In this document: piece after piece, positions 6,510-61,091 of the stretch
How the letters are laid out: each line of letters opens with the position of its first letter
Numbering within the stretch: position 1 is the stretch's first letter
NCBI GenBank assembly: GCA_019391515.1
Contig: JAHXQP010000017.1
Span: 1-64,000, forward strand
Length of the DNA: 64,000 nt
From: Clostridiaceae bacterium
GTDB lineage: Bacteria > Bacillota > Clostridia > Tissierellales > Sporanaerobacteraceae
Reading direction: 5' to 3'
Notes under the pieces: generated by a model
Databases searched by the model: none
Seen by the model: only the letters and a program-made list of their open reading frames with translations
Told to the model about the DNA's origin: nothing
Made by a program: the position numbers and the translations under genes

Positions 6510-6736
6510 GTACATGTTTTTCGAAATTATAATTATATTTTTATAATGTCAAACTAATACTATCAAAAATAGACTTTAATTTTCATATGATCCATTATAT
6601 TTTGCAAATGATCTATATATTTTATCACTCAAATCATAAAATATAATCACCTTTAAATAAAATATATTTATTATTTTATCATCTTTTCTAGTTATGTTTG
6701 TCCAATATTATTCATACAATTTATAGAGGTGATTAT

Positions 6737-7810
6737 ATGGCTAAGAAAATATCCTTTTTAATTGTAATTTGTATATTTATTTCTATCATAGTTAGTGCTG
6801 ACAATAACAACAATTTATTAGGCGAAGTATTGGAAGTAAAAAAAGTCCCCGAAAGTATAGGTAAGGAAATAATTAAAGTTAAAATATTAGAAGGAAAATA
6901 CGAAAATCAAACAGTAAATATAGATAGAGAAAGAATAGAATATTCAACTCAAGACTTTGACCTTAAAAAAGGAGATCATATCCTAATAGAGTTACAAATT
7001 AATGAGGATGGCATTGTATCTGGAAAGTTCATAAACATTTGGAGATTAAATGAACTAAAAAAATTATCTATTATTTTTTTTATATCTATACTTATATTTG
7101 GCGGGTTAAGGGGAATCTCTTCTCTTCTATCTCTAATTTTTTCTGGATTTATAATTATAAAGTTTATGATTCCATATATACTAAAAGGGCACAATATTAT
7201 GTTTATATCTATTATTTCTTCTTCTATTATTGTTATAGTTAGTTTTCTATTAATATCTGGATTCACTAAGAAAAGTTTTGTATCTATTTTAGGGACGGTT
7301 GGTGGCACTATAATAGCTGGATTATTATCTTATCTATATTCAAATTTAACAAATATAACTGGACTTGCTAATGAAGATGTTATGTTTTTAGTAACAAATG
7401 TAGGACTTGAAGCAGATTTTAGTAGTCTTTATATGAGTTCTATCCTTATTGGTACTATAGGTGTAGTAATGGATGTAAGCATGTCTATCACTTCATCTAT
7501 ATTTGAAATAAAAAAGCAAAGTCCTAAAATTGGTTTTTCAAGCTTAATGCACTCTGGATTTAAAATAGGAAAGGATATTATGTCTACAATGGTAAATACT
7601 CTTATACTTGCATATGCAGGTAGTTCCTTGCCTTTAATTATAATAAATGTCATTTCTGATTGTCCTTTAATAGAAACTTTAAATACTGAATTAATAGCTA
7701 TGGAGATTATAAGATCCCTTTGTGGAAGCATCGGCCTAGTCCTTACTATCCCTTTGACAGTTTTTATTGCCTCCCATATAGCTCAAAAAGCTAATCCTAA
7801 AAGTTTATAA
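6737..7810 (+). CDS. YibE/F-family multi-spanning membrane protein
   Basis: The predicted protein has about 357 residues. An N-terminal signal-like segment is followed by a small extracellular beta-rich domain (about residues 25-105, with KVKILEGKYENQTV), then seven or eight hydrophobic segments including FGGLRGISSLLSL and SILIGTIGVVMDVSMSITSS. This arrangement matches the YibE/F family, whose transport or regulatory role is not established. The ATG at 6737 has AGAGGTG a few bases upstream; the 13 upstream codons of the frame lack one. It is a single gene, convergent with the yitT-like gene across a shared terminator. Confidence 0.85.
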   Translation: MAKKISFLIVICIFISIIVSADNNNNLLGEVLEVKKVPESIGKEIIKVKILEGKYENQTVNIDRERIEYSTQDFDLKKGDHILIELQINEDGIVSGKFINIWRLNELKKLSIIFFISILIFGGLRGISSLLSLIFSGFIIIKFMIPYILKGHNIMFISIISSSIIVIVSFLLISGFTKKSFVSILGTVGGTIIAGLLSYLYSNLTNITGLANEDVMFLVTNVGLEADFSSLYMSSILIGTIGVVMDVSMSITSSIFEIKKQSPKIGFSSLMHSGFKIGKDIMSTMVNTLILAYAGSSLPLIIINVISDCPLIETLNTELIAMEIIRSLCGSIGLVLTIPLTVFIASHIAQKANPKSL

Positions 7811-7847
7811 AAATAAAGAGGAAACCTTAGCCCCTCTTTATTTTTAT
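7811..7847. terminator. bidirectional terminator between yibF-like and yitT-like genes
   Basis: AAAGAGG pairs with CCTCTTT, with A-rich and T-rich flanks, giving a Rho-independent terminator usable from both strands between convergent genes. Confidence 0.75.
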
Positions 7848-8695
7848 TCATCAATACTTTTAAAACCGTCACCTAATACCTCATATACATTTGAAACTGT
7901 AACAAATGCATTTTCATCTATAGTTTTTATATGATTTTTTAATTTAATAAAATCTTTTCTATCTACTACAGTAACTACTACATCCTTTATATTTCCTGTA
8001 TAAGCCCCCTTAGCACTATATAAAGTTGCACCTCTTTCTAAATCTTTTACTATATAATCTTTAATATTATCACTGTATTCACTTACTATATTTACTTGTT
8101 TACTTAAATTTATTCCATCAATAGTTGAGTCTATTACTAATCCATTTAATATAACTCCTAATAGTGAATACATTGCTAATCTAGGTCCAAAGGCAATTCC
8201 AGCCATTAAAGTTATGGAGAAATCACATAAAAGTACTCCTCTTCCTAGCTCTAATCCCCAAAATTTATTTATTATTTTTGCTATTATATCTGTTCCACCT
8301 GTAGATGCATTTTGATTGAATACAATTGCCATACCAATAGCAGATATAAATACTCCAATGACAAGCTGTAATATAATATCATCTGATAATGGTCCTCCCA
8401 TAGGAATTATATTTTCAAATAAAGAAACTATAACTGAAGTTCCTAGACTTGTATAAATTGTTTTAATTCCAAAACCAGCACCTATAAATATAAAGGCAAC
8501 TATAAATAAAACTATATTAATAATTATCATTAGGTTTCCTATAGATAAAAATGGAATCCAATGATTTACAACAATAGCAAGGCCGTTAGCACCACCTATA
8601 GCTAACTTTTGTGGCATAAAAAAGAAATATAATCCTATTGCTACCATAAGCATTCCTATTGTTATAAATACATATTCTTTTATTTTTCCTCTCAA
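7844..8695 (-). CDS. YitT-family membrane protein (DUF161 + DUF2179)
   Basis: The 283-residue protein has about five membrane segments in its first 200 residues with the family motifs FFMPQKLAIGGANGLA and NQNASTGGTDIIAKIIN, followed by a soluble C-terminal DUF2179 domain (about 205-283, containing GATLYSAKGAYTG). YitT proteins are proposed transporters with no settled substrate. Translation begins at TTG with GGGGGAG upstream. The gene is alone behind a cobalamin riboswitch with its own terminator, so its product is likely made when B12 is scarce; this suggests but does not prove a link to corrinoid, cobalt or a B12-sparing substrate. Confidence 0.9.
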   Translation of the reverse strand: MRGKIKEYVFITIGMLMVAIGLYFFFMPQKLAIGGANGLAIVVNHWIPFLSIGNLMIIINIVLFIVAFIFIGAGFGIKTIYTSLGTSVIVSLFENIIPMGGPLSDDIILQLVIGVFISAIGMAIVFNQNASTGGTDIIAKIINKFWGLELGRGVLLCDFSITLMAGIAFGPRLAMYSLLGVILNGLVIDSTIDGINLSKQVNIVSEYSDNIKDYIVKDLERGATLYSAKGAYTGNIKDVVVTVVDRKDFIKLKNHIKTIDENAFVTVSNVYEVLGDGFKSIDE

Positions 8696-8718
8696 ATCTA
8701 CTCCCCCTTATTTTGACA

Positions 8719-8750
8719 ATAAAAAATCCTCCAACTCTAGACTCTGGAGG
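8719..8750 (-). terminator. riboswitch expression-platform terminator upstream of yitT
   Basis: CCTCCA and TGGAGG arms followed by ATTTTTT lie between the cobalamin aptamer and the yitT-like start. The loop AGTCTAGAG could pair with the upstream CTCTACGG segment, a possible antiterminator. Confidence 0.75.
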
Positions 8751-8835
8751 CAGCATAAAATAGACGGAGAATATTTCTATATTTCAAAATAATCCGCTAC
8801 AACACCCCCTATCAACCGTAGAGTTTTTTGGTGGA

Positions 8836-9000
8836 TAAATAAAGGCAGGTCTTCTGACTCTGGTTCATAAAGATTTAAAGCCTTCCCGATTTTCTCAGTG
8901 GCATAATTAAAAATCCTTTCCCATTACAGCGGCGGGACCGTACAGGATTTTCACCTGTTTCCCTTTTAAGTAGAGAAAAACTTCTCCACACCTTTATATA
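8836..9000 (-). promoter_or_regulatory. cobalamin riboswitch upstream of yitT-like gene
   Basis: On the minus strand the conserved elements appear in order: GGGAA, GGTGAAAATCC, the core GGTCCCGCCGCTGTAA, GCCACTG, and GTCAGAAGACCTGCC at the 3' end. This is the classic B12-box architecture. The only downstream gene before a terminator is the YitT-family gene. Confidence 0.93.
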
Positions 9001-9018
9001 TATAAACTTATATATTCC

Positions 9019-9047
9019 AGTATATATTATAACACCAATATGGTCAA
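9019..9047 (-). promoter_or_regulatory. promoter of the cobalamin-riboswitch transcript
   Basis: TTGACC (9042-9047) and TATACT (9019-9024) are separated by 17 bases and start about 20 bases before the aptamer. Confidence 0.6.
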
Positions 9048-33706: not shown

Positions 33707-33734
33707 AGTATCAAAATAAATATAAAAAAACTGA

Positions 33735-33816
33735 TCCCTCCGTTGGAATTACCCAAATCAGGTTCTTAGGGTCAGGAATAACATTCCTATCTCAGCCTAT
33801 CAATATAAGCCCCCCT
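33735..33816 (-). promoter_or_regulatory. TPP riboswitch (thi box) of the thiC operon
   Basis: The conserved GGGG, GGCTGAGAT, GACCC, GAACCTGAT and GGGTAAT elements occur in order on the minus strand. Confidence 0.95.
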
Positions 33817-33986
33817 TATGTTTTATATTAAGTTTTAATTTTAACAACTCCATCATATCATCTTTTAAAGATTATGTAAAATTAAATATATTAAATAAAA
33901 GATATAATTGTAGATTGATGTAACATATTTCCTAGGTATATGAATATTATATAAAGATACATATCATTTTGATTGGAGATATTTAT

Positions 33987-39477: not shown

Positions 39478-40347
39478 TTATCCTAAAACTTTAATAAGGG
39501 TTTCTCCAATCATATCTGGAGTATCTACCATTCTAATTCCACATTCTCTCATAATTTTTATTTTTTCCTGTGCCGTTCCTTTGCTTCCAGATATTATAGC
39601 TCCTGCATGTCCCATACGTTTCCCTTTTGGAGCAGTTTTCCCACTAATAAATCCTACAATTGGCTTTGACATATTTTCTTTGATCCATAATGCAGCTTCC
39701 TCTTCTGCTGTGCCTCCAATTTCACCAATCATAACAATAGCATTAGTGTCTTCATCTTCATTGAAAGCCTTAAACACATCAATAAAGTCCGTTCCATTTA
39801 TAGGGTCTCCTCCAATTCCAATAGCTGCTGACTGTCCAATTTCTTTTTTTGTTAATTGATTGACTGCCTCATAAGTCAATGTTCCCGAACGAGATACTAT
39901 ACCTACATTTCCTTTTTTATGGATATAACCAGGCATAATTCCTATCTTAGACTCTCCAGGTACTATAATTCCAGGACAATTAGGTCCTATTAATCTCGTT
40001 TTGCTTTCTTCCATATATCTTTTAACTTTTATCATATCATATACTGGAATATGCTCTGTTATACAAATAATAATCTCTAAGCCTGCTTCCACGCCTTCTA
40101 AAATTGCGTCTGCCGCCCAAGGTGCTGGAACATATATTATAGAAGCAGTTGCTCCTGTTTCTTCAATAGCTTCTTTCACTGTATCAAAAACTGGTATACC
40201 CTCGACTACTGTACCTCCCTTGCCTGGAGTTATACCTCCAACTATTTTAGTTCCATATACTAACATTGCTCTAGTATGAAAACGTGCTGTCGAACCTGTT
40301 ATTCCTTGAACTATTACTTTTGTATTTCTATCAATCCATATACCCAT
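39478..40347 (-). CDS. sucD: succinyl-CoA synthetase alpha subunit
   Basis: It forms, with SucC, the enzyme that interconverts succinyl-CoA plus ADP/GDP and phosphate with succinate, CoA and ATP/GTP. The 289-residue protein has the CoA-binding start [40 protein letters not shown] and the phosphohistidine site [12 protein letters not shown]. It lies 15 bp after sucC. By eye sucCD is slightly richer in GC than the neighbourhood. Confidence 0.95.
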
Positions 40348-40362
40348 TTAGCATCTTCCTTT

Positions 40363-41523
40363 CTATTCAACTAATTCAACTATTTTCTTAGCACCATCAG
40401 TCATGGAATCTGCAACAATAAAATTCAGACCTGATTTTTTCAACATTTCTTTCCCTTTCAATACATTCGTTCCTTCAAGACGGATTACAATAGGAACCTT
40501 TACCTTCACTTCTTTTGCAGCCTCTATTATTCCCTTTGCAATTACATCACATTTCATAATTCCACCAAAAATATTTACAAATATACCTTTTATATTTTTA
40601 TCTGAAAGGATAATTTTGAAAGCTGACTTTACATTATCTTCTGTTGCGCTGCCACCAACATCAAGAAAATTAGCTGGTTCTCCTCCATAATGTTTTATAA
40701 TATCCATTGTAGCCATAGCCAATCCTGCACCGTTTACCATGCAACCAATATTTCCATCCAAGGCTATATAAGAAAGATTATATTTTGATGCTTCTATTTC
40801 CTTTTCATCTTCTTCATCTAAATCACGATAATATTGTATTTCACTCTGCCTATATATACCGTTTTCATCAAAACTTAGTTTTGCATCTAATGCCATCATT
40901 CTGTTATCTTTTGTTATAGCTAGTGGATTTATTTCAGCAAGGATGCAATCATTTTGTGAATAGCAATTATATAAATTCAATGATAATTCTACAAACTTAT
41001 CAATCAACCCGTTGGGAATATTTATATTAAAAGCAATACGACGAGCTTGAAAAGATGTTAAACCAACTAAGGGATCAATTATTTCTGTAAAAATCTTTTC
41101 TGGTGTTTTTTTTGCTACCTCTTCAATATCCGTTCCCCCTTCTTCTGAAGCAACAAAAACAATCCTTGACGTTCTTCTATCTAAAGTAAAACCAATATAA
41201 TACTCCTTTTTTATATTACAACTTTCTTCAATTAACAGCCTTTTTATTTCTTTACCTTGTGGACCAGTTTGATGAGTAAATAGTTTTTTCCCAAAAAGTT
41301 CATTAGCATATGATACAACCTCACTAATACTTTCTGCTACTTTTATTCCACCTGCTTTACCTCTACCTCCAGCATGAATTTGTGCTTTTACAACAGCCAC
41401 ACTACTTTCAATTTTCCATGCTGCTTTTTCTGCTTCATCTGGAGAAAAAATAACTACACCTTTAGGAACTTCTATATTATATTTTTTTAAAACTTCTTTG
41501 GCTTGATATTCATGTATATTCAT
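40363..41523 (-). CDS. sucC: succinyl-CoA synthetase beta subunit
   Basis: The 386-residue protein begins [17 protein letters not shown] and has the ATP-grasp fold motifs [40 protein letters not shown] and [13 protein letters not shown]. The ATG at 41523 has GGAGGGG six bases upstream; two earlier ATGs lie in or before this site. The transcript comes from a cobalamin riboswitch about 150 bp upstream, followed by two terminator-like hairpins, so the enzyme is predicted to rise when B12 is low. No other TCA or methylmalonyl-CoA gene is in the window. Confidence 0.95.
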
Positions 41524-41552
41524 TTTCATCCCCTCCATATATGTATTGATTG

Positions 41553-41590: not shown

Positions 41591-41619
41591 TAAAAAAAGC
41601 CTTTCTAAAGACAGAAAGG
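41591..41619 (-). terminator. cobalamin-riboswitch terminator upstream of sucCD
   Basis: CCTTTCT pairs with AGAAAGG, followed by CTTTTTTTATT on the minus strand. Confidence 0.8.
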
Positions 41620-41679
41620 ATGTTATTTTATTTAACACCTCCTCATCCTCGTGAGTAATAAACAGCATTGTTGCTATTG

Positions 41680-41850
41680 GCAGGTCTCCTGACTTGGGTA
41701 TAACAAAACTTATTCCTTCCCATGCAAATATACACAGTGGTATAATAAGTTCCTAACCTTTACAGTGGCGGGACCGTGTCGGAATTTCACCGTACTTCCC
41801 TTTTAAGCAATTTCTTAATGAAATTAGCACCAACAGCCTCTATATTCAAT
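41680..41850 (-). promoter_or_regulatory. cobalamin riboswitch upstream of sucCD
   Basis: Minus-strand elements in order are TTGGTGCTAAT, AAAAGGGAAG, GGTGAAATTCCGACAC, the core GGTCCCGCCACTGTAA, and GTCAGGAGACCTGCC. This is a canonical B12 aptamer followed by a terminator and sucC. Confidence 0.95.
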
Positions 41851-43872: not shown

Positions 43873-44619
43873 TTATATAAATCTTCCTATTTTATTTATT
43901 GGTATGGAAAAGTTATTTTTAAATTCTTCATATTTATCTTCTTCTATAGATACCAATACACAAGTTGATGGTCCTGCTGATTTTTTAAGATCTATATTTA
44001 AATTTTCTTCTAATTGGAAATCAATATTGTTTGTTTTAGCCATTTCTTCTAATTCATATAGTATCCCTTTTGAACCTATTGGAAGAATCTCTTTTATGTA
44101 TTCTTTTTCTTTTAGCTCTAATAATCTTGAAATATTCATTATAGTGCTGTTATTATCAGCTATTACTTCATCCCCTATTTTAGGTATTCCAACTACTACA
44201 GAAAGTAAACCAGCCTGTGTATATGGCATTTCCCAATTTTTCCTGTCAACAATTCCTATTATAGTTATACCCATTCCAGTTTGAATTACCGGAAAATTTT
44301 CTTCTGTACTACCTGTTATCAGGCTAGACATATCAAAATCTAGAGGTTCTAAGGCTTTTTTTATTCCACTTATTATTTTTTTGCCTGTATCATCCATTTC
44401 TACAGATAAAGTATTTACAACTGTAATAGGTTTAGCTCCAAACGAAAGAATTTCCATAAGAGATACTTGAGCCGCATAATATCCTGTAACCTCTGGCGAC
44501 ACTTTAACAATATCTTTTTCTTTATTCCCTATTGCACCGGAAGAATCACAAGATATTACTAGCATTTGATCTTCATTTATATCTACTAATGTTAAATCTC
44601 TATATTTAATTGTTTTCAT
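43873..44619 (-). CDS. cblS: alpha-ribazole kinase (AIR synthase-related)
   Basis: The 248-residue protein is an AIR-synthase/PurM-like ATP enzyme: SCDSSGAIGNKEKDIVKV (N-terminal phosphate-loop Asp), ITGSTEENFPVIQTGMGITIIG and a C-terminal AGPSTCVLVSI. Its position directly after a cblT-like transporter matches the CblT-CblS alpha-ribazole salvage pair known from Listeria and Geobacillus, in which CblS phosphorylates alpha-ribazole for the lower ligand of B12. The ATG has AGGGTGAG upstream and starts 9 bp after the cblT frame ends. A HypE/ThiL-type alternative is less likely in this context. Confidence 0.8.
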   Translation of the reverse strand: MKTIKYRDLTLVDINEDQMLVISCDSSGAIGNKEKDIVKVSPEVTGYYAAQVSLMEILSFGAKPITVVNTLSVEMDDTGKKIISGIKKALEPLDFDMSSLITGSTEENFPVIQTGMGITIIGIVDRKNWEMPYTQAGLLSVVVGIPKIGDEVIADNNSTIMNISRLLELKEKEYIKEILPIGSKGILYELEEMAKTNNIDFQLEENLNIDLKKSAGPSTCVLVSIEEDKYEEFKNNFSIPINKIGRFI

Positions 44620-60787: not shown

Positions 60788-60983
60788 AACATACCATCCT
60801 TTTTCTATATTTAATAATATAAATATTTATTATAATTTCACACTAATTATGTATACCCAGTAATTATTAAACTATATTTTATTTTTAAACAATTTATATG
60901 GTATTATCAAATAAAAGGTAAACTTTCTTTTATAGTTTATTAATGTTATAATGATATATAAATAGTTATAAAATTAAATATTT

Positions 60984-61075
60984 AGTGCTAGGGGTGCCTA
61001 AAGGCTGAGAAAAGTTTTTATAACTTTACCCTTTGAACCTGATGCGGATAAAACCGACGTAGGAAAGCTGATACA
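60984..61075 (+). promoter_or_regulatory. TPP riboswitch of the tatD-thiXYZ operon
   Basis: GGGGTGCC, GGCTGAGA, ACCCTTTGAACCTGATGCGG and GTAGGAAAG occur in order, a canonical thi box. A -10 element TATAAT lies about 35 bp upstream. Confidence 0.95.
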
Positions 61076-61091
61076 ATTTTAGGAAACTCCT

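Follow-up and report, generated by a model that had tools for sequence, protein, structure and literature searches.

Cobalamin riboswitches in the window genome and its relatives are predicted to control genes encoding YitT-family membrane proteins as well as genes for enzymes that act on succinyl-CoA, either SucCD or ScpC. A B12-shortage regulon joining YitT with SucCD or ScpC is well supported. We tentatively propose, at a probability close to even, that YitT is part of such a regulon draining succinyl-CoA and is a candidate exporter of succinate or a related dicarboxylate. The evidence is computational and comprises the riboswitches, terminator-like hairpins in most leaders, co-occurrence across genomes, same-strand gene runs and matches to methylmalonyl-CoA mutase. 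It suggests that the role of YitT is acid disposal at low B12 rather than the fetching of B12. YitT proteins are widespread and, to our knowledge, no substrate is known for the YitT/DUF161-DUF2179 family (COG1284); the excerpts of the YitT-family literature that were searched name none. The window is the whole stretch of DNA that was analysed, 64,000 nucleotides in length.

The YitT transcription unit

The earlier note on this DNA had described a YitT/DUF2179 gene as the only gene behind a full B12 aptamer and a terminator. The Pfam matches of the protein, the riboswitch score and the terminator at 8750-8721 bear this out. The unit comprises the following features.

7844-8695, minus strand: YitT gene, 283 aa, TTG start (open reading frame list and Pfam)
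8707-8701, minus strand: ribosome binding site GGGGGAG (read from the sequence)
8721-8750, minus strand: intrinsic terminator, a 7-bp stem at 8750-8728 followed by TTTTTT at 8726-8721 (sequence and folding)
8819-8825, minus strand: candidate antiterminator arm AACTCTA, able to pair with TAGAGTT (8739-8733) within the terminator (by eye)
8827-9010, minus strand: cobalamin riboswitch aptamer RF00174 (covariance model, full length, 1-189)
9047-9019, minus strand: sigma-70-like promoter TTGACC-17-TATACT (weak motif match)

In an RNA-family scan of the window, the aptamer scored 124.8 bits (E = 6.5e-31; gathering score 31.5). A separate leader-hairpin scan returned a longer hairpin that ends at the same T tract as the terminator. 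The terminator was absent from the output of a pattern scanner, which accepts loops of up to 8 bases and probably passed over this one of 9. The AACTCTA arm adjoins the aptamer. Based on the hairpin, the T6 tract and the AACTCTA/TAGAGTT pairing, the leader therefore has the layout of a switch in which bound B12 halts transcription. Promoter-like matches in the stretch were no more frequent than in shuffled sequence (7 versus a mean of 9.3). The next long open reading frame downstream of YitT is convergent (6698-7810, plus strand), and two minus-strand reading frames of 100 and 110 aa within it were taken as chance. As read from the open reading frame list, YitT appears to be the sole gene of its unit.

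We also scanned 28 leaders, hand-picked from aptamer-led YitT and sucC units with the G030 leader left out, at a threshold of −5 kcal/mol. A hairpin followed by a T run was found in 21 of them; the remaining seven fell below the threshold, three of these having no hairpin at all. Derepression at low B12, which the earlier note had predicted, would fit a terminator-type leader and this frequency of hairpins, a count made without a shuffled control.

The YitT protein

The protein matched PF02588 (YitT_membrane; 4e-54, 183.6 bits versus a gathering score of 24.3) and, in its C-terminal part, PF10035 (DUF2179; 1.3e-20, 73.4 bits versus 22.8). No further Pfam family and no NCBIfam family matched at E up to 0.001; neither PF06826, the domain of the AAEx succinate exporters, in the Pfam scan nor, in both libraries, the sequence families of known B12 importers (ECF S-component, BtuC) were among the matches. 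A search of a defence library yielded no match. Among solved structures, the DUF2179 protein 3hlu matched by sequence (1.4e-17); five further matches, with E-values of 0.3-0.9, were not credible. Two domains were delimited.

8108-8695, minus strand: membrane domain (residues 1-196), in which the order TM / GG-led half helix / TM / TM occurs twice, with GG34-35 and GG133-134 (AlphaFold2, pLDDT 90.7)
7847-8107, minus strand: DUF2179 domain, a ferredoxin-like fold resembling PII-like proteins (Pfam and structure comparison)

The internal repeat of the membrane domain is faint in sequence (hhalign P 3.6e-4, probability 36.7). As each modelled repeat has three full helices and a half helix, the two halves would be oppositely oriented, as in many transporters. 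The membrane-domain model, built from 80 sequences, found no counterpart in Foldseek at a limit of E 0.001; its best VIA Z was 4.7. Kinship with a known transporter fold was therefore set aside; these results are compatible with a new fold or with distant kin. The importer folds ThiT (Z 3.9) and the S-component 5edl (Z 3.1) fell among unspecific low scores.

The DUF2179 domain superimposed on 3hlu_A, itself a DUF2179 protein, with Z 11.9 and an rmsd of 2.1 over 73 residues. After its own family, the best structural matches were PstA, DarA, SbtB and GlnK (Z about 9.6-10.8). A designed protein (Z 10.3) and EF-G (9.7) matched about as well, such that the likeness to PII is not exclusive. Our guess from the model is that this domain may bind a small regulatory ligand.

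A second cobalamin riboswitch precedes sucCD

The window contains a second cobalamin riboswitch, which the earlier note had overlooked and which is central to the explanation proposed here.

41662-41849, minus strand: cobalamin riboswitch aptamer RF00174 upstream of sucCD (104.3 bits)
41592-41620, minus strand: terminator-like hairpin and T7 tract in the sucC leader (seen in the sequence)
40363-41538, minus strand: sucC, ADP-forming succinate-CoA ligase, beta subunit (TIGR01016)
39478-40347, minus strand: sucD, succinate-CoA ligase, alpha subunit (family match)

The leader-hairpin scan returned a different hairpin, further down the sucC leader than 41592-41620. The window genome has no TIGR01016 match besides this sucC. 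A search of that genome for PF06826 permeases gave no match either, which leaves YitT as the only exporter candidate found there.

Several other features were observed. An AIRS-domain protein (PF00586) is encoded near the sucCD riboswitch (43873-44619, minus strand). AIRS-like proteins also occur close to YitT in family f14 (L157, 10024-10779) and, in G031, in the vicinity of the operon with riboswitch-YitT (L072, 1130-1876); such proteins may be the alpha-ribazole kinase CblS. The window also holds two TPP riboswitches, at 33718-33826 (minus strand, 73.6 bits) and 60980-61082 (plus strand, 72.1 bits). On contigs C31, C12, C27 and C13 of G000 (L003, L007, L011-L014), cobalamin-riboswitch matches lie near surface-type genes (DUF4430, LRR_5, Ig-like, FIVAR), those in L011-L014 scoring under the curated cut-off. 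Perhaps these surface-type proteins capture corrinoids at the cell surface.

Riboswitch-linked YitT genes recur in related genomes

To survey the order, 60 genomes, the window genome included, were searched with the YitT protein and the loci were scanned for RNA families. In 16 of the 60, a same-strand aptamer preceded YitT, immediately or with one to three genes in between (G000, G003, G004, G005, G006, G011, G012, G016, G019, G021, G026, G030, G031, G034, G046 and G052). The genome-wide list of RF00174 matches is complete for 48 genomes; riboswitch-YitT is present in each of the remaining 12. In a class-wide draw of 392 genomes, a YitT match with an E-value no higher than 1e-80 occurred in 56, of which 45 lie outside the order. 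RF00174 was sought in 28 of the 45 (G403, of similar score, was left out) and preceded the YitT gene run in three: G143, G175 and G269. Among 22 loci from named genomes, the arrangement was present in Clostridium frigidicarnis (L046), Clostridium tagluense (L047) and an uncultured Clostridiaceae (L059). In G143, a RAGATH-18 RNA (62.9 bits; L141, 5824-5885, minus strand) lies between the cobalamin aptamer and YitT.

The survey yielded 82 distinct YitT rows, 81 of which entered the tree (L066 was too short) and 80 the structure alignment. Riboswitch labels were set by hand, 'unlinked' denoting that RF00174 was absent from a flank of ~1.5-2.5 kb (less at contig ends) or from genome lists compared by eye. 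By these labels, 23 of the 81 rows are aptamer-linked. Linkage was clustered on the tree: the unlinked state underwent 9 changes, versus a shuffled mean of 20.2, and a value as low occurred in 0 of 500 shuffles, near-copies favouring clustering. The clade of the window's YitT (14 rows, support 100/99) contains 11 linked rows; its three unlinked rows come from G051 and, in two cases, from G049, a genome in which methylmalonyl-CoA mutase had no match. In a second clade (21 rows, support 100/97), ten rows are linked and eight of those have succinate genes. The earlier note had proposed comparing YitT phylogeny for a B12-riboswitch-linked clade. The association recurs in related genomes, so that the clade-wide lack of it, which the note had named as a refutation, was not observed.

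Gene partners of riboswitch-linked YitT

In nine of the 23 linked rows, succinate genes lie between the aptamer and YitT, in same-strand runs that would be co-transcribed.

G019: ScpC-YitT
G012, G052 and G269: AspT-ScpC-YitT
G016 (contig C263), G031 and G034: AspT-sucC-sucD-YitT
G030: AspT (broken by one stop)-sucC-sucD-YitT

The ninth run, on contig C124 of G016, reads AspT-YitT. We checked ScpC with curated models in G012 and G019, where it scored 740 and 661 against an equivalog cut-off of 500, and with TIGR03458 in the 60 genomes. The AspT-like permease was checked in G012, where it matched PF06826 at 3e-59, and in G016, and with PF06826 in the 60 genomes. Assignment of sucC was by TIGR01016. 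Resemblance was the basis for naming the G269 genes and the sucD genes other than those of the window and L071; in trees, the G269 genes fall together with the checked ones. ScpC and SucCD are not known to be related, and each can turn succinyl-CoA into succinate. Our main argument is that, because the two replace each other beside YitT, YitT serves the conversion of succinyl-CoA to succinate or the product of that conversion. The ScpC tree places G019 on a long branch and gave no support for an independent origin of its ScpC-YitT pair. Tandem cobalamin aptamers occur before sucC in G004 (L091, 3056-3545, plus strand) and before AspT-ScpC-YitT in G269 (L139, 175-747, plus strand).

The remaining linked rows include 13 to which no partner gene was assigned, though same-strand genes follow YitT in some. 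A sigma-54 activator gene lies directly 3' of the aptamer-led YitT in C. frigidicarnis (L046, 3380-4456, plus strand; by resemblance) and C. tagluense (L047, 3407-4432, plus strand; PF00158). In G175, RF00174, YitT and nrdD- and nrdG-like genes, named by eye, form one same-strand run (L140, 4536-8772, plus strand), and another RF00174 lies beyond the nrdG-like gene. ZnuABC-like and Fur-like genes, also named by eye, are found near YitT in G026 and G051 (L081 and L084).

It is rather improbable that YitT instead handles some other compound needed at low B12, such as a different metal or what a further B12-dependent mutase acts on, or that it is a regulated partner of other transporters. The 13 rows lacking an assigned partner, the nrdDG-like run of G175, the ZnuABC-like neighbours in G026 and G051 and the PII-resembling C-terminal domain of YitT would all suit such a role, but the repeated positional link to a single conversion, from succinyl-CoA to succinate, speaks against it.

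Riboswitch-YitT and riboswitch-SucCD/ScpC co-occur

Across the 60 genomes of the order, sucC exceeded the cut-off in ten, and all ten genes lie within RF00174-led units. G037 has a full-length sucC match just under the cut-off (352.5 versus 375.55 bits), and the contig that carries it lacks a riboswitch. Three of the 27 ScpC genes above the cut-off lie behind RF00174, and each of these belongs to a YitT run; the list of RF00174 matches, which leaves out one of the five riboswitches of G031, shows none near the other ScpC genes.

Riboswitch-led SucCD or ScpC was thus present in 13 genomes and riboswitch-YitT in 16. Both occurred in 12, YitT only in four, sucCD only in one and neither in 43 (Fisher's exact test, p = 1.6e-8, kinship ignored). 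The four genomes with riboswitch-YitT only are G006, G011, G021 and G046, the first three having neither sucC nor ScpC above the cut-off. The single genome in which sucCD is riboswitch-led and YitT has no riboswitch link is G010, where YitT comes after a gene of the sodium:dicarboxylate symporter family (PF00375; L079, 3966-6174, plus strand). The two kinds of unit were present or absent together in the variable families f1, f5, f8, f10 and f11; families f2, f7, f17 and f18 each contain one YitT-only genome, and f6 contains the sucCD-only genome.

Genomes rich in riboswitches might produce such an overlap. This cause was ruled out by permuting within three strata, defined by how many other RF00174 matches a genome has: 0 of 200000 permutations reached 12 (mean 4.4).

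Methylmalonyl-CoA mutase and a proposed succinate drain

Methylmalonyl-CoA mutase is B12-dependent. It matched (PF01642) in 52 of the 60 genomes and in all 16 riboswitch-YitT genomes, the match in G000 being split between contig ends. As nearly every genome of the order has the enzyme, finding it in all 16 says little (p = 0.095), and its presence could not be told apart as a driver of the co-occurrence. In the mutase operons read, the gene is followed by small mutase subunit-, MeaB-, epimerase- and sodium-pumping decarboxylase-like genes (named by eye). The operon looks like a sodium-pumping route from succinyl-CoA to propionyl-CoA and propionate. In G022, G017, G041 and G054, it also includes ScpC and an AspT-like permease. 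The AspT-like permeases of the riboswitch units and of the mutase operons form one group (support 100/100), apart from three other PF06826 proteins.

We propose the following scheme. While B12 is present, the mutase would carry succinyl-CoA to propionate, and the riboswitches would terminate transcription of the drain genes. When adenosylcobalamin falls, the mutase would stall and the leaders would be read through. SucCD, with a yield of ATP, or ScpC would then convert succinyl-CoA to succinate, and AspT-like permeases, YitT or both would export succinate or a related dicarboxylate. It speaks against an exporter role for YitT that AspT is present beside it in several runs, where there would seem to be little need for another exporter.

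Both SucCD and ScpC can also run in reverse. YitT might accordingly import succinate or a similar acid, for conversion by SucCD or ScpC to succinyl-CoA whenever the mutase fails to provide that compound from propionyl-CoA. The gene associations are the same as for export. We nevertheless regard import as quite improbable: the mutase operon, with genes named by eye, looks decarboxylating and sodium-pumping, from succinyl-CoA to propionyl-CoA, and one member of the AspT family, SucE1, is known to export succinate (PMC9527358).

The export scheme has a physiological counterpart. Earlier work cited in PMC11575231 found that Xylanibacter ruminicola accumulates succinate in the absence of B12; the 10-h cultures of that study itself showed a trend (P = 0.07).

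Possible corrinoid or metal uptake

From derepression under B12 limitation, the earlier note had suggested a role in uptake of a corrinoid, a precursor, cobalt or a compound that spares B12; on this reading, YitT would import a corrinoid, a lower-ligand precursor such as alpha-ribazole, or cobalt. Part of this view found an echo in the neighbourhoods, some loci adjoining cobalamin, cobalt or CobW-like genes, but the commonest named partners proved to be succinyl-CoA and succinate genes.

One locus that would suit a corrinoid role is that of family f14 (G018, G032 and G044). There, YitT is the last gene of an aptamer-led, same-strand cluster containing cobQ and CobD-, BtuF-, BtuC-, BtuD-, CobS-, AIRS- and LspA-like genes; it overlaps the preceding LspA-like gene and lies ~9 kb downstream of the riboswitch. 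Families were scanned in G044 only: cobQ was above the NCBIfam cut-off and CobS and LspA were above the Pfam cut-offs, while the remaining names in the G044 cluster come from best matches that fell short of the NCBIfam cut-off, AIRS falling short of its Pfam cut-off as well. The f14 YitT genes were labelled unlinked in the tree and stand outside the 16; counting them as linked gave a table of 12/7/1/40 (Fisher's exact test, p = 4e-7). The f14 cluster already has BtuFCD-like genes, which weakens the case for YitT as the importer. Elsewhere, a corrinoid adenosyltransferase gene (BtuR/CobO) directly precedes YitT in G224; CbiP-, CbiB- and CobD-like genes follow it on contig C124 of G016; and, by eye, cbiMN-like genes lie beside it in C. 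tagluense and a CobW-like GTPase gene follows it in G011.

Uptake of a corrinoid or of cobalt leaves unexplained the linkage to SucCD, ScpC and AspT seen in 12 of the 16 riboswitch-YitT genomes. Moreover, cobB is commoner in riboswitch-YitT genomes (14 of 16 versus 24 of 44 others, p = 0.03), and YitT matched no Pfam family beyond its own two and no NCBIfam family. In the window genome, other riboswitch-led genes, mostly named by eye, resemble those of corrinoid and cobalt uptake and synthesis (cbiM-like, binding-protein and permease-like genes), and YitT therefore fills no obvious gap there. In light of the f14 cluster, the cobalamin and metal neighbours and the lack of sucC and ScpC above the cut-off in G006, G011 and G021, we retain a corrinoid or metal role as unlikely but of appreciable probability.

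Relation to known systems

The drain proposed here shares the regulatory logic of B12-independent isozymes such as NrdDG and MetE, where a cobalamin riboswitch keeps the B12-free alternative repressed as long as B12 is available; for NrdDG, this was predicted in PMC545781. By contrast, the genes targeted in the present case (SucCD, ScpC, AspT and YitT) would provide not an isozyme but an outlet for the substrate of the stalled mutase. The job proposed for YitT is that of SucE1 of the aspartate:alanine exchanger (AAEx) family, succinate export, and AAEx relatives occur in the same aptamer-led runs as YitT, yet YitT itself has no PF06826 match. The window protein has both Pfam domains of COG1284 above cut-off, to which its clade adds control by a riboswitch and the gene partners described above. 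In B12-dependent production of propionate by the succinate pathway, of the Xylanibacter and Bacteroides type, succinate accumulates without B12 (PMC11575231). In X. ruminicola KHP1, however, the four cobalamin riboswitches are not near propionate-pathway genes, whereas here riboswitches precede the succinate branch.

In the literature searched, whose coverage of subscription papers is small, nothing tied YitT or COG1284 to a cobalamin riboswitch, and cobalamin-riboswitch control of SucCD, ScpC, AspT or YitT was absent among the matches listed. Titles and abstract openings of the YitT-family literature do not mention B12, and a search for 'succinate exporter' together with 'YbjL' returned nothing. 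The riboswitch class and the protein family are already known; the target set of SucCD, ScpC, AspT and YitT, as predicted from sequence, and the job proposed for YitT appear to be new to this literature.

Implications

It is possible, if doubtful, that the YitT clade constitutes a new family of organic-acid exporters, specific for succinate or C4-dicarboxylates, with a fused PII-resembling regulatory domain and a membrane fold for which the structure searches gave no solved match, and that it belongs to a cobalamin-riboswitch regulon rerouting fermentation from propionate to succinate once B12 is exhausted. If true, this would provide the first substrate for the widespread YitT family. The supply of B12 would then set the balance between propionate and succinate in these fermenters by gene control and not by enzyme activity alone. 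The targets of cobalamin riboswitches would be extended to a drain around a stalled B12 enzyme, as distinct from B12 uptake, B12 synthesis or a B12-free isozyme.
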